A stretch of 45,312 nt of DNA, taken from assembly GCA_017557525.1 (NCBI GenBank), contig JAFYYN010000098.1, forward strand, positions 1 to 45,312. The letters run 5' to 3'. How positions within the stretch are numbered: the stretch's first letter is position 1; each line of letters begins with the position of its first letter. The position numbers were made by a program, and so were the translations under genes. Origin of the DNA: Lachnospiraceae bacterium. GTDB taxonomy: Bacteria; Bacillota; Clostridia; Lachnospirales; Lachnospiraceae. Below, piece after piece: positions 30,462 through 35,564 of the stretch. The notes below the pieces were generated by a model. That model worked only from the letters and a program-made list of their open reading frames with translations. It did no database searches and had not been told where the DNA came from.

Positions 30462-30602
30462 ATGGGAAAGATAAGTCAAAAACCAAACAATGATTTTTGT
30501 CCACAGACATTGTTTTTGTATGGGACATACGATGAGAAAGGAAACCCGGATCACAAAATCTTTGAAATTGCCATGGATATAGTAAAAATATCAGGGAAGT
30601 AA
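30462..30602 (+). pseudogene. Chimeric remnant: flavin-reductase start joined to a HAD-hydrolase tail
   Basis: The 46-codon frame begins MGKISQKPNNDFCPQ and runs through residue 30 (GNPD). This part, with its GGAGG site, matches the first 30 codons of the intact flavin reductase at 38014 at about 90% by eye. It then switches to HKIFEIAM, found in the HAD hydrolase at 41066 (around 41519-41542), and then to MDIVKISGK, which matches the extreme C-terminus of the same HAD (MDIARISGK). Both junctions fall at short identical bases (GAT and ATG). The product is unlikely to fold or act. Confidence 0.85.
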
Positions 30603-30606
30603 GGAT

Positions 30607-31125
30607 ATGGATAACAAAGCATTATATGTACTTGCCGGCTATGATGACGAGACTGAAAAGACTTTATCGGGGCTTCAGAACAGGTTATATGATCTGGGTT
30701 TCGAAGGATCTCAGACAAAAAACATACCGATGCATTTTACTCTGGGTTCATATGATACTGAGAGGGAAGAAGAGTTAAAGGTCAGACTTCAAAAGGCAGC
30801 CAAGGACCATAAAGCGTTTAAGGTTTCCTTTACACAGATAGATCTTTTCCAAAATCCCGCAAATGATGTTCTGTTTATTACACCGGAAGAAAATAAGGAA
30901 ATGTTAAGTTTAAAAGAAGATTTTTCGGATAATAAGGATCAATACCCCTGGGCGGCGCATACTACCATGTTGATCGATAAGCCTGAAATCATCCGTGATG
31001 CCAAGGAGATTGTATCGAATGAATTTAAGCCCTTTTCGGGACGTGTGACAAAACTGTATCTGTATGAATTCTGGCCGACTAGACATATTATGACGGTACA
31101 GTTGGAGGTTCAACATGAAATATGA
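30607..31125 (+). CDS. 2H phosphoesterase (LigT / 2'-5' RNA ligase-like)
   Basis: The 172-residue protein carries the two HxT motifs that define the 2H superfamily: HFTLG at residues 43-47 and HTTML at 118-122, spaced as in LigT-type cyclic phosphodiesterases. The strand order (ALYVLAGYD opening, VTKLYLYEFWP before the end) also fits. Such enzymes open 2',3'-cyclic phosphates or 2'-5' linkages; the natural substrate here is unknown. It starts 4 nt after the chimera stop, preceded by AAGTAAGGAT. Confidence 0.83.
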   Translation: MDNKALYVLAGYDDETEKTLSGLQNRLYDLGFEGSQTKNIPMHFTLGSYDTEREEELKVRLQKAAKDHKAFKVSFTQIDLFQNPANDVLFITPEENKEMLSLKEDFSDNKDQYPWAAHTTMLIDKPEIIRDAKEIVSNEFKPFSGRVTKLYLYEFWPTRHIMTVQLEVQHEI

Positions 31126-31174
31126 GATATCCTAATATGTATCAGTTAAAATTTCGGTAGAGGATAAAAAGGTT

Positions 31175-32087: not shown

Positions 32088-32153
32088 CAAAAGACATTCA
32101 ATATAGTCAATTGTATATCAAATGACTATATTGACTTGACTTTTGGCTTTTTT
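32088..32153 (+). terminator. Strong hairpin with T tract
   Basis: TCAATATAGTCA (32098-32109) and TGACTATATTGA (32123-32134) are a perfect 12-bp stem. A second short stem (CAAAAG/CTTTTG) sits below an internal loop and GCTTTTTTT follows. It would act as a terminator for transcripts arriving from the left. Confidence 0.7.
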
Positions 32154-32166
32154 TATTGACAGCTTA

Positions 32167-32212
32167 AAAATGCGATTAAATCAATAGTGGAATATTGAAT
32201 TAATCGCATTTT
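32167..32212. repeat. 46-nt near-perfect inverted repeat
   Basis: Arms of 20 nt (32167-32186 and 32193-32212) pair with a single mismatch around a 6-nt loop GTGGAA. The ends read AAAATGCGATTAA and TTAATCGCATTTT. The right arm ends in TTTT, so bidirectional termination is possible. A small mobile-element or protein-binding role cannot be excluded. Confidence 0.8.
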
Positions 32213-32333: not shown

Positions 32334-32362
32334 TTGACATTTTTCGCCAAAAGCGATATACT
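32334..32362 (+). promoter_or_regulatory. Promoter for the DUF234-type ATPase
   Basis: TTGACA (32334-32339), a 17-nt spacer and TATACT (32357-32362) are near consensus. The spacer itself contains TTTTCGCCAAAA, an inverse copy of the motif that begins at the predicted transcript start. Confidence 0.85.
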
Positions 32363-32369
32363 AATTATA

Positions 32370-32446
32370 GTTTTGGCGGAAAATAAGCCTGAAAAGCAAT
32401 AAAAACCGCCAAAACACGGATACGAATAAATGTTTTGGCGGTTTTT
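32370..32446 (+). promoter_or_regulatory. Leader with alternating TTTTGGCGG hairpins, attenuator-like
   Basis: Segment B, GTTTTGGCGG (32370-32379), sits at the predicted +1. Segment C (32401-32416) and segment D (32431-32446) are perfect 16-bp inverse copies that end in GGCGGTTTTT, a terminator-like hairpin with a 14-nt loop. B can instead pair with the CCGCCAAAAC of C, which would prevent the C-D hairpin. A fourth copy, A (32341-32352), lies in the promoter. The ATPase ATG follows 30 nt after D. The alternate pairing is seen in sequence; regulation is inferred. Confidence 0.7.
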
Positions 32447-32476
32447 GACTGTCAAAGATATAATAAGGGGATATCT

Positions 32477-33898
32477 ATGAAGATAATAGGAAGAGAGCGG
32501 GAAAAGGATTTATTAAACAGGTGCCTGATGTCAAAAAGACCGGAATTTGTTGCGGTATATGGCAGACATAGAATTGGGAAAACATATCTTGTCAAAGAAT
32601 TTTTTAACAAACAGTTTTCATTTTATGCCACAGGTCTTTCGGATGAAAAGATGGAAGGACAGTTAAAAGCATTTAATCATAGCCTTGTGGAATATGGTAG
32701 TAAGGAGAAGGATGCCCCTAAGGATTGGTTTGAAGCCTTTATAAGATTAAAAAAACTCCTATTAGGTGACAACGTATATAGAGAACCGACAAATGGCAAA
32801 ATTGTTGTATTTCTTGACGAACTTCCGTGGATGGATACCCCAAAATCGAATTTTAAGAGTGCATTAGATTATTTCTGGAACAGTTGGGGATCTTCTAATG
32901 AAAATTTGCTTCTGGTTATATGTGGGTCTGCGACATCTTATATCATAAATAATATACTGACGAACAGAAAGGGGTTTCACAATAGAGTTACAAGGAAAAT
33001 ACAACTTGCGCCGTTTTCACTTAAAGAATGCGAGGAGCTTATTGCAGATAATGATGTTGTAATGTCACATGATCAAATGTTAGAAATGTATATGATTTTT
33101 GGAGGTATACCGTTTTATCTGAATCTTTTAGATTCTCGGTTAAGCTTGGCACAAAATGTAGAAGAATTGTTATTTAAAACACATGGTGAGTTATATTCGG
33201 AATATAATAACCTTTTTTACTCGTTATTCAAGAAACCGGAAAAGCATTTAGCTATAATTAGGATATTGGCTCAGAGTAAAATGGGAATGACCAGGAATGA
33301 ACTTGCAGAAAATAATGAAATTGGAGGAGGTTCTGTACTTACCAAAAACCTGTTAGAATTAGAACAGTGTGGTTTTATAAGACGGTATAAAGATACTTCA
33401 AAACTTATCAAAAATTCATATTTTCAGGTGGTAGATCCGTTTACTCTGTTTTATCTAAAAGTCATTCTAAGTGAAAAGACGGATTCATGGATAACATACA
33501 TTAACACTCCGGGATATTATTCGTGGAGAGGAAGTGCGTTTGAGATACTATGTTTTAATCATGTGAAACAGATTAAGCAGAAGCTGGGAATAAGTGGAGT
33601 GGACTCTGAAGAATATGGATTCAGGTTTCAAGATGATAAGAATCGCGCACAAATAGATATGATTATTGACAGAAAAGATGGAGTTGTGAATATTTGTGAG
33701 GATAAATGTACTAATGATCCATATGAAATAACTGAAAGTGAATATAAAAAGATACAAAACAGAATGGAAGTGTATAGAAGCAAAACTAAGACCAAAAGTG
33801 CGCTCCATTTTACTCTTATTTCAGCAAATGGATTAAGGAGAGGTAAATATTCGGGTATAGTACAGAATTTGATTATAGGTGAAGATCTGTTTACATGA
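32477..33898 (+). CDS. AAA+ ATPase with DUF234-type C-terminal domain
   Basis: The 473-residue protein opens with IIGREREKDLLNRCL. It has Walker A GRHRIGKT (29-36), Walker B IVVFLDELPWMD (109-120) and a sensor-like LLLVICGSATSYI. A winged-helix middle (MTRNELAENNEIGGGS) and a C-terminal PD-(D/E)xK-like DUF234 region (EYGFRFQDDKNRAQIDMIID, then VNICEDKC) follow. Such ATPases (COG1672 type) are common in archaea and anaerobic Firmicutes and their role is unsettled. ATG at 32477 has AAGGGG 6 nt upstream; the frame open to 32435 overlaps the leader hairpin. Confidence 0.85.
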   Translation: MKIIGREREKDLLNRCLMSKRPEFVAVYGRHRIGKTYLVKEFFNKQFSFYATGLSDEKMEGQLKAFNHSLVEYGSKEKDAPKDWFEAFIRLKKLLLGDNVYREPTNGKIVVFLDELPWMDTPKSNFKSALDYFWNSWGSSNENLLLVICGSATSYIINNILTNRKGFHNRVTRKIQLAPFSLKECEELIADNDVVMSHDQMLEMYMIFGGIPFYLNLLDSRLSLAQNVEELLFKTHGELYSEYNNLFYSLFKKPEKHLAIIRILAQSKMGMTRNELAENNEIGGGSVLTKNLLELEQCGFIRRYKDTSKLIKNSYFQVVDPFTLFYLKVILSEKTDSWITYINTPGYYSWRGSAFEILCFNHVKQIKQKLGISGVDSEEYGFRFQDDKNRAQIDMIIDRKDGVVNICEDKCTNDPYEITESEYKKIQNRMEVYRSKTKTKSALHFTLISANGLRRGKYSGIVQNLIIGEDLFT

Positions 33899-33996
33899 AA
33901 GAACAAAGAGGAACAAGTCCGATTGTGGAGATTTTTCCTGACAGGATTAAATTCTATAATGCCGGTGAGTACAATTTTTACAGGAGGGGACTATGA
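33895..33996 (+). pseudogene. Fragment of an AlbA_2/ATP-binding regulator-like gene
   Basis: A 33-codon frame overlaps the ATPase stop (ATGA) and reads MKEQRGTSPIVEIFPDRIKF, then YNAGEYNFYRRGL. The core 'PIVEIFPDRIKFYNAGE' resembles the C-terminal part of AlbA_2-type ATP-binding proteins, where it follows a histidine-kinase-like ATPase motif that is absent here. It supplies the AGGAGGGG site for gpmI at its end. It is probably a residual exon-sized scrap, though translational coupling to gpmI is possible. Confidence 0.5.
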
Positions 33997-35564
33997 AAAC
34001 AGTAGTATTAGTGGTTATGGACGGAGTCGGAGAGACTAAGGAAGAACTCGGAAATATGGTACTTAGAGCCAACACACCGACTTTGGATGAATTAAAGGCA
34101 ACTTGCCCATGGCAGTGCATACAGGCGCATGGCGTAGCCGTAGGTCTGCCTTCGGATGACGATATGGGAAACAGTGAAGTCGGACATAATGCACTCGGTT
34201 GCGGACAGATTTATTCCCAGGGAGCCAAGCTTGTTAATGAGTCAATAGAATCCGGAGCTGTTTACCGGAGTGATACATGGAAAGAAATCATCGATTATGT
34301 AAAACACGGAGATAAAGCGTTACATTTTATAGGACTGTTATCTGATGGGAATGTGCATTCCAATATCAGTCATCTGCTGGCTATGCTTGCAGAAGCAAAG
34401 AGAGAAGGAATACATAAAGTACGTATCCATACTTTACTGGACGGACGTGATGTACCTGCTACCTCAGCATTGGAATATGTTGATAAACTGGAAGAAACTC
34501 TTAACAAACTTAATGATGACAGCTTTGACGGCTGTATTGCATCCGGTGGCGGCAGAATGTGTATAACCATGGACCGCTATCAGGCAAATTGGGCAATGGT
34601 GAAAGCCGGATGGGATGTACATGTGCATGGTGAGGGTCGCCGGTTTAGAAGTGCTTCGGAGGCAATCAATACTCTAAGAAACGAAACAGGAGCTATAGAT
34701 CAGGATCTCCCTGCATTTGTGATAGCCAAGGATGGAAAGCCGATAGGTGATATGGAGGATGGAGACGGAGTTATACTCTTTAACTTCCGTGGTGACAGAG
34801 CTTTGGAAATATCAATGGCATTTGACGGAGATTGCTCATTTGATAAATTTGACCGTGGGACAGTTCCGAAAGTGTACTATGCCGGCATGCTTGAATACGA
34901 CGGGGACTTGAAAATACCACATCATTATCTTGTCAATCCTCCTCAGATTCGAAATACTCTTACAGAACTACTTGTACAAGACGGTATAAAAGAGTATGCG
35001 GTATCAGAGACACAGAAGTACGGGCATGTCACATATTTCTGGAACGGAAACCGCTCCGGGAAGGTATCTGAAGAACTTGAAGATTATTGTGAGATTCCGA
35101 GTGACGTACGCTCCTTTGATGAATGCCCTTGGATGAAAGCTACTGAGATCACGGACAAGGTTATCGAAGCTATACGGAGCGGTAAATACGGATTTATCCG
35201 CTGTAATTTCCCTAATGGAGATATGGTAGGACATACAGGAAACTTGGATGCTACCGAGATTGCTGTGGAAAGTGTTGACCTGCAGCTTGCCCGCATCAAG
35301 AAAGTTTGTGACGAAGAAAACTGCATTCTGGTAGTGACAGCTGACCACGGAAATTCAGATAAAATGCTAGAGAAAAATAAAAAAGGCAATGTAGAAGTTC
35401 GAACTGCACACAGTTTGAATCCTGTACCTTTCATCATTTATGACAGGGAAGTAAGGCATGAGATGAAGGAAGGACATTACGGGCTTGCAAATGTGGCACC
35501 TACAGTGGCGGAGCTTATGGGCCTTGTTTCGTTTGATACTTGGGAAGAAAGCATGTTGAAATAA
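33993..35564 (+). CDS. gpmI: 2,3-bisphosphoglycerate-independent phosphoglycerate mutase
   Basis: The 523-residue metalloenzyme interconverts 3- and 2-phosphoglycerate in glycolysis. The alkaline-phosphatase fold is marked by VVMDGVG (Asp10), the phospho-serine Ser61 in MGNSEVGHNALGCGQ and DGRDVPA. The C-terminal metal motifs GDMVGHTGN, VVTADHGNSDKM and RTAHSLNPVPF are intact. Length and order match GpmI. AGGAGGGG precedes the ATG. It is a core-metabolism gene in an otherwise accessory region, so it may be a second copy or may make this replicon indispensable; the window cannot tell which. Confidence 0.95.
   Translation: MKTVVLVVMDGVGETKEELGNMVLRANTPTLDELKATCPWQCIQAHGVAVGLPSDDDMGNSEVGHNALGCGQIYSQGAKLVNESIESGAVYRSDTWKEIIDYVKHGDKALHFIGLLSDGNVHSNISHLLAMLAEAKREGIHKVRIHTLLDGRDVPATSALEYVDKLEETLNKLNDDSFDGCIASGGGRMCITMDRYQANWAMVKAGWDVHVHGEGRRFRSASEAINTLRNETGAIDQDLPAFVIAKDGKPIGDMEDGDGVILFNFRGDRALEISMAFDGDCSFDKFDRGTVPKVYYAGMLEYDGDLKIPHHYLVNPPQIRNTLTELLVQDGIKEYAVSETQKYGHVTYFWNGNRSGKVSEELEDYCEIPSDVRSFDECPWMKATEITDKVIEAIRSGKYGFIRCNFPNGDMVGHTGNLDATEIAVESVDLQLARIKKVCDEENCILVVTADHGNSDKMLEKNKKGNVEVRTAHSLNPVPFIIYDREVRHEMKEGHYGLANVAPTVAELMGLVSFDTWEESMLK

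Follow-up and report, generated by a model that had tools for sequence, protein, structure and literature searches.

The locus and its ATPase

Within the 45,312-nucleotide stretch of Lachnospiraceae DNA analysed here (the window), a plus-strand gene at 32477..33898 encodes an ATPase of 473 amino acids that belongs to the PDC-S27 family. The protein matches the PADLOC profile PDLC04984 (PDC-S27) over its full length (residues 1-472, E=1.9e-182) and, in addition, Pfam ATPase_2 (E=1.5e-12). The term "DUF234-type", used for this ATPase in a preliminary description made from the DNA letters, proved loosely right: ATPase_2 is matched, whereas PF03008 (DUF234), a profile that matches 27 of the 86 aligned family proteins, gave no match to the window protein at E 0.01. 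Its relatives at the protein level include Butyrivibrio and other Lachnospiraceae.

PDC-S27 is described as an ATPase domain fused to a member of the PD-(D/E)XK group (PMC12988326). The same source counts 3503 archaeal and 4562 bacterial detections and states that most such defence candidates await validation (PMC12988326). We regard PDC-S27 as a candidate single-gene phage defence family that is common and little studied. The window protein has the organization that defines the family, with a STAND-like ATPase domain (32492..33124, plus strand; residues 6-216), a winged helix (33239..33430, plus strand; residues 255-318) and, in the alignment and a domain model, a predicted PD-(D/E)XK nuclease domain at its C-terminus (33509..33895, plus strand; residues 345-473). 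An AlphaFold2 model (mean pLDDT 94.1) resolves the winged helix into helices at 255-264, 273-277 and 286-297 and strands at 301-305 and 314-318. The model of the nuclease domain (pLDDT 95.4) resembles 2vld, EndoMS and AF1548, and more weakly Card1 and FokI; its residues D394, E408 and K410 are invariant across 86 aligned sequences. A phmmer search against solved structures at E 0.01 returned no match for the window ATPase. Fold comparison did match, and the ATPase plus winged-helix fold was found to resemble Cdc6/Orc1 structures solved with DNA (2qby, 2v1u).

Alternating repeats form two putative operators ahead of the gene

A consensus scan predicts a plus-strand promoter at 32334..32362, consisting of a -35 box TTGACA (32334-32339), a 17-nt spacer and a -10 box TATACT (32357-32362), in which 11 of 12 consensus positions agree. 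The likely ribosome binding site, AAGGGG, is read from the sequence at 32465..32470 (plus strand). In the DNA between the -35 box and this site, the motif CGCCAAAA/TTTTGGCG(G) occurs in four alternating copies, and the positions given for them in the preliminary description were all borne out. Copy A (CGCCAAAA, 32345-32352) does lie within the promoter spacer, with the correction that it matches the 9-mer at 8/9, and copy B (TTTTGGCGG, 32371-32379) lies at the predicted transcription start. Copies C and D form the perfect stem that had been claimed, an inverted repeat of 16/16 with arms at 32401-32416 and 32431-32446, the D arm ending in TTTTT.

When read as the 16-bp half-sites that are common to the family (see below), these copies fall into two putative operators. 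O1 comprises half-site A on the plus strand (32338..32353; CATTTTTCGCCAAAAG) and half-site B on the minus strand (32370..32385; the minus strand reads TATTTTCCGCCAAAAC), with an arm match of 13/16, and spans the end of the -35 box, the spacer, the -10 box and the predicted +1. O2 comprises half-site C on the plus strand (32400..32415; TAAAAACCGCCAAAAC) and half-site D on the minus strand (32432..32447, overlapping the stem arm at 32431-32446), with an arm match of 15/16, and sits between the promoter and the ribosome binding site. In both, the half-site starts are exactly 32 bp apart, and the centres of O1 and O2 are separated by 62 bp.

These repeats stand out from their surroundings. The 220 bases preceding the gene gave a best inverted-repeat score of 16; across 20 dinucleotide shuffles this score averaged 7.3 and peaked at 9. 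A scan of the whole 45-kb window with the family half-site ranked O2 first (34.6) and O1 second (29.2), the next pair scoring 18.4. Across the 3.93-Mb assembly, exact operator pairs were present only at this locus, and the operator pattern with up to 3 mismatches was found at 17 places per strand (O1 and O2 included) versus 29 in a reversed control. Since the exact pairs are unique and near-matches are rarer than in the control, the operator looks private to this gene and not part of a regulon. No Rfam family matched anywhere in the window at gathering thresholds.

Further upstream, between the inositol monophosphatase gene and the promoter, lie two strong palindromes (32098-32134 and 32167-32212), with arms of 16 and 20 nt that are 94% and 95% complementary; the second also pairs at 32 bp, with a low family half-site score of 18.4. 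The stretch from 260 to 560 bases upstream of the gene holds one half-site-like match.

The operator architecture is kept while its letters change

Of 118 related loci, 2 were duplicates and 6 had no start or N-terminus that could be used; the other 110 are distinct relatives, and the 93 of them with at least 35% identity form the main set. The 260 bases upstream of each gene were searched for inverted pairs of 16-bp half-sites, with spacings of 24-40 allowed and the spacing itself unscored. This search revealed a pair matching at 11/16 or better in 86 of the 93 relatives, versus 7/93 in dinucleotide-shuffled DNA and 9/93 in a far-upstream stretch (-560 to -300). The spacing converged on 31 bp (36 loci) or 32 bp (45 loci), together 81/93, compared with 9/93 in shuffles and 12/93 in the far-upstream stretch. 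As further controls, 20/85 stretches of coding DNA and 27/84 of downstream DNA, where terminators are inverted repeats too, held a pair of at least 11/16; the 31/32 spacing was seen in 9/85 and 15/84, respectively, and a score of at least 22 in 8/84 downstream stretches. A search free of any weight matrix (14-mer arms, spacing 14-60) likewise found pairs of at least 12/14 in 83/93 loci versus 6/93 after shuffling; its spacings are spread, as moving both arms outward by one base alters the spacing by two.

The half-sites of the relatives share a skeleton, roughly TATAAnTnGCynAAAnC, around a variable core. The variability shows at position 8, which carries 0.04 bits between loci, yet agrees between the arms of a locus in 97% of 134 loci, a figure that can be compared between positions and not read as a level because arms were chosen for their overall match. 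Homologues lacking the motif had been proposed in the preliminary description as grounds for refutation: the exact letters do differ in most relatives, while the architecture is kept.

A locus's own half-site is concentrated just ahead of its gene. Among 118 loci, it recurred within 300 bases downstream of the gene in 10 and in the 300 bases further upstream in 5, as compared with 2/118 in shuffled downstream DNA; the window is one of the five with a further-upstream half-site and is not among the ten with a downstream one. Four of the ten (L036, L037, L169 and L195) carry two own half-sites each after the gene, and six carry one. The site stands beside the gene of its putative reader, over or near the promoter, as is expected of an autoregulatory operator.

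The half-site covaries with the winged helix of the adjacent ATPase

A training set of 64 of the 93 loci, each with a complete protein and a good pair spaced at 31/32, and with four near-duplicates taken out, was used to relate half-site bases to residues of the ATPase. By background-corrected mutual information, residue 284 stood out, with z scores of 10.3 against half-site position 11 and 7.4 against position 12; the next column reached 5.3. Residue 284 (G284 in the window protein, codon 33326..33328 on the plus strand) immediately precedes helix 286-297, the recognition helix. In these loci, glycine at 284 goes with CA at positions 11-12 (13/13), serine with CA (8/9), aspartate with TG or GG (14/15) and asparagine with TT or TA (14/15); where residue 284 is glutamate or a gap, the bases are mixed.

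This rule was fixed before the upstream regions of 77 new loci were read. These came mostly from other bacterial families, viral contigs and plasmids, and were what remained of 91 after the removal of 10 without a match at E 1e-30, 2 without an N-terminus, 1 with a short upstream region and 1 duplicate. A good pair was present in 69/77 (it was absent from 8, as from 7 of the 93 main-set loci), and the spacing was 31/32 in 63/77. The rule could be tested in the 48 of these 77 loci that combine a good pair spaced 31/32 bp with one of the residues it covers. It was correct in 39 of the 48, some of which are closely related to one another and do not amount to 48 independent tests; with the labels permuted 10,000 times, it was correct in 14.5 loci on average and in 26 at most. 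The nine exceptions comprise five loci with D284, two with S, one with N and one with E.

When the sets were combined (the 112 of 120 loci that remained below 85% identity), the top pairs were 284x11 (z 11.4), 284x12 (9.0) and 312x13 (7.9), followed by 287x8 (6.9), 312x15 (6.7) and 277x11 (5.5). All six lie within the winged helix: V287 (codon 33335..33337, plus strand) in the recognition helix and K312 (codon 33410..33412, plus strand) in the wing. The two half-sites analysed separately placed 5 and 6 of their top 6 pairs there. With the loop and both flanks as controls, 0/6 did so in each case, with maxima of 5.7 to 6.7. Maxima in 60 label permutations over 465 columns reached 7.0, so that only 284x11, 284x12 and 312x13 exceed them on their own. 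A sister-pair test with 55 path-disjoint pairs, which largely removes shared ancestry, ranked residue 284 first among 403 columns for positions 11-12 (p=1.9e-5) and residue 287 first for positions 7-9 (p=4.9e-5). A winged helix sitting on DNA would be expected to place its recognition helix and its wing in this way, the former on bases 8-12 and the latter on 13-15.

The bases of the site thus covary with the recognition helix of the protein that we propose as its reader, which, together with the family-wide architecture, lends support to the preliminary view of copies A and B as an operator-like inverted pair over the -10 box. The same data bear on the idea that a different regulator, common to the family, binds these sites. 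We found no point in its favour; bases 8-13 vary by gene, in step with the helix and wing of the ATPase itself, and the exact operators are confined to this locus in the assembly, leaving this idea next to no chance of being right.

Promoter position and helical phasing argue for a DNA site

The position of the operators relative to the promoter was assessed in strong loci (125 of 170, with at least 12/16 arm match and spacing 31-33), 119 of which have a predicted promoter, using a crude promoter consensus and a strict operator count. By this count, 65 of the 125 loci hold one full operator and 60 hold two. Of the 119 loci, 20 have all their full operators upstream of the -35 box, 34 have all of theirs downstream of +1, 44 show overlap with the core promoter, and the remaining 21 have operators on both sides. 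The window is counted among the 34, since its imperfect O1 escapes the strict count, and for the same reason the 44 loci with core overlap are a lower bound. This leaves 75/119 loci with no counted full operator over the predicted core.

Where two operators are present, their centre distances are helically phased (R 0.33 at 10.5 bp, p=0.0016, for all 60 loci), more strongly so in the 36 loci in which they are less than 112 bp apart (R 0.61, p=2e-6). The best period is about 11.2 bp and not 10.5, and 0 of 2000 jittered sets reached the observed maximum. When related loci with equal distances were thinned to leave 42, the 10.5-bp signal weakened to p=0.032 and the best-period signal stayed. Such phasing of paired operators is a feature of double-stranded DNA.

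The preliminary description had proposed a dual DNA/RNA switch, and of its two parts the DNA operator is supported, with two operators and one of them over the promoter. The RNA part holds that C:D acts as a terminator and B:C as an antiterminator in the leader RNA, switching ATPase expression in response to a signal. Both hairpins do fold well as RNA (C:D at -22.5 kcal/mol; B:C, as had been claimed, over 10 pairs, at -15.8 kcal/mol), the D arm of the window does end in TTTTT, and the 34 loci with counted full operators only downstream of +1 would be suitably placed. Alternating inverted copies, however, can always be folded as mutually exclusive hairpins, so that the alternation is a by-product. 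A T-run of at least five at the right edge is seen in only 13/134 loci, and in 20 of the 119 loci all counted full operators are upstream of the -35 box. By these two counts, relatives do not keep a terminator hairpin with a T-run in the transcribed leader. C/D was absent from the output of a terminator scan of the window, which covered loops of 3-8 nt; as the C/D loop has 14 nt, its absence counts neither for nor against a terminator. Neither helical phasing nor covariation with a DNA-binding helix is a feature of RNA. Attenuation was rejected as the general function of the repeats, given operators that often lie upstream of the promoter, rare T-runs and phased operators, and we give it very little credence overall; as O2 lies in the leader, an RNA role at the window itself could apply.

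The number of loci without core overlap bears on a further reading, in which the array is chiefly a working platform, a sensor or loading site where the ATPase waits or assembles on its own DNA sites, as Orc1/Cdc6 does on origin repeats, with promoter control secondary. The 75/119 loci without a full operator over the predicted core, the phased pairs of full operators in 60/125 loci, and the resemblance of the AAA+ plus winged-helix fold to Cdc6/Orc1 solved with DNA (2qby, 2v1u) all fit such a platform. Against it, the own half-site is concentrated ahead of the gene (10/118 downstream and 5/118 further upstream, with 2/118 in shuffled DNA), and expression is usually controlled from sites adjacent to the start codon. 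We judge a platform unlikely to be the main function.

Distant relatives and the one-gene cassette

The distant set comprises 23 loci, namely the 17 of the 110 relatives with 24-28% identity and 6 of 10 distant viral ones; the six that were scanned match the PDC-S27 profile at E 7e-58 to 2.6e-67. In the 17, the 31/32-bp pair is unconvincing: a match of at least 11/16 is seen in 6/17 and a spacing of 31/32 in 5/17, and the best score was 19.2, versus a mean of 26.5 in the 93. In their place, 15/23 distant loci carry a 9-mer repeated directly at a distance of exactly 15 bp within the 160 bases before the gene, with 0.62 expected per distance, a comparison in which the shuffles were of single letters and the 15-bp spacing had already been noticed in some of these loci before the count. 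Direct repeats are locus-specific in distant DUF234-like relatives (for example L027, L031, L045, L059, L060, L061, L149 and L153), and locus-specific arrays may be a trait of the wider family.

Near-identical copies in different surroundings can have no more than operator and gene in common. In L064 and L067 (proteins 99% identical), the DNA match begins at -130 and ends 2 bases beyond the stop codon, and in L164 and L175 (95%) it begins at -178, the operator edge, and ends 1 base beyond the stop. In L217 and L218, homology is likewise limited to operators and gene, with unrelated flanks. In such copies the operators travel with the gene as a minimal one-gene cassette. That such a match can be bounded by the operator on one side and by the stop codon on the other also suits the idea that the repeats are the end or target of a mobile unit made up of operator and gene, with regulation incidental, as do the 10/118 loci with an own half-site after the gene, 4 of which have two. 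Matching repeats at both ends, as a transposon would have, were not the rule: in 108/118 loci, the window among them, no own half-site follows within 300 bases of the gene, and the near-identical pairs L212/L215 and L162/L174 share longer flanks. That the repeats serve mobility in the first place seems very unlikely.

An empty site corresponding to the window was not found; the genome with the closest phosphoglycerate mutase (G001, 94%) has a different gene upstream of it. There, the phosphoglycerate mutase gene adjoins a 2'-5' RNA ligase-like gene, and in the window (30599-31126 and 33986-35555) the monophosphatase and ATPase genes lie between the two. The genome of the window encodes two further family members with motifs of their own, L044 (G000:C162) and L045 (G000:C102), with 52% and 28% identity. 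By eye, the upstream flank of L009 resembles the C-terminal end of another family ATPase, and L032 and L044 have only the last part of this flank in common with it, a pattern that suggests tandem duplication and deletion. Two family members, L141 and L147, lie on one viral contig (IMGVR_UViG_3300021319_000137), so that genes of this family are also carried on DNA classed as viral.

A proposed model of autorepression

Taken together, we consider it quite probable that the repeats are two operators bound by the winged helix of the ATPase itself, which would repress its own promoter region. Binding of the ATPase to its own sites through the winged helix has strong inferential support from the comparisons of protein and DNA sequences; we infer that it dimerises on the operator, and a weaker case can be made for repression, for release on activation and for a role in defence. 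In this model, O1, over the promoter, and O2 would both be read by the winged helix of the ATPase encoded downstream. Each operator would be occupied by an ATPase dimer, or by two adjacent members of a larger ring, as half-sites three helical turns apart would place the partners on one face of the DNA. Because O1 and O2 are 62 bp apart, or about six turns, binding is probably cooperative. Occupancy would shut the promoter and keep a candidate defence protein with a predicted nuclease scarce, until a signal engaged the ATPase and released it from the operators. Since each gene copy has its own operator spelling, paralogues within one genome should not cross-regulate.

Repression is suggested by the extent of O1 in the window, from the end of the -35 box to +1, and by the usual logic of such sites. 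Occlusion of the promoter does not fit all loci, as core overlap was counted in only 44/119, and the other 75 leave room for a role in activation or as a platform; activation or looping could apply there in place of occlusion. A more ambitious extension, possible and on the doubtful side, would describe PDC-S27/DUF234 proteins as self-addressed ATPase-nucleases in which the private, phased array is part of sensing: an inactive complex would sit on the promoter, and activation triggered by phage would release nuclease and expression together, in two branches with two geometries (inverted at 31/32 bp and direct at 15 bp).

A cognate site and a readable protein-DNA rule would provide a biochemical handle on PDC-S27, as each protein can be paired with a predicted DNA ligand, with which regulation, oligomeric state and trigger become assayable. 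The model also suggests a simple logic by which an immune ATPase with a predicted nuclease is held in check without a separate repressor, and how several paralogues may coexist in one genome.

Comparison with known systems

Autoregulation through inverted repeats is already known in defence regulators and antitoxins. Controller proteins of restriction systems probably offer another parallel. Among the matches listed in the open-licence PMC literature, we found no description of operators, repeats or regulation of this ATPase family, nor of a candidate effector as the reader of a private, diverging site.

With regard to the protein, the closest known systems include the archaeal ATPases SSO1545 and PAB2304 (2fna, 2qen) and the STAND NTPases (plant NLRs, CED-4), to which the window protein adds a nuclease-like domain and a winged helix that appears to read specific DNA. 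Archaeal Orc1/Cdc6 initiators, solved with DNA (2qby, 2v1u), likewise combine AAA+ and winged-helix domains.

With regard to the regulation, the WYL-type proteins BrxR/CapW are described as HTH repressors that bind an inverted repeat near their own promoter in a defence locus (PMC9122601). BrxR is a separate, dedicated regulator that recognises 11-bp arms with a 5-bp spacer (PMC9122601), whereas here the ATPase itself is the proposed regulator and the half-sites are 31-32 bp apart. Antitoxins such as AbiEi and Rv2827c also autoregulate through inverted repeats, of which the Rv2827c promoter has two sets (PMC7319586). In those cases, it is the antitoxin of a two-gene system that binds, whereas the locus described here involves no second gene.
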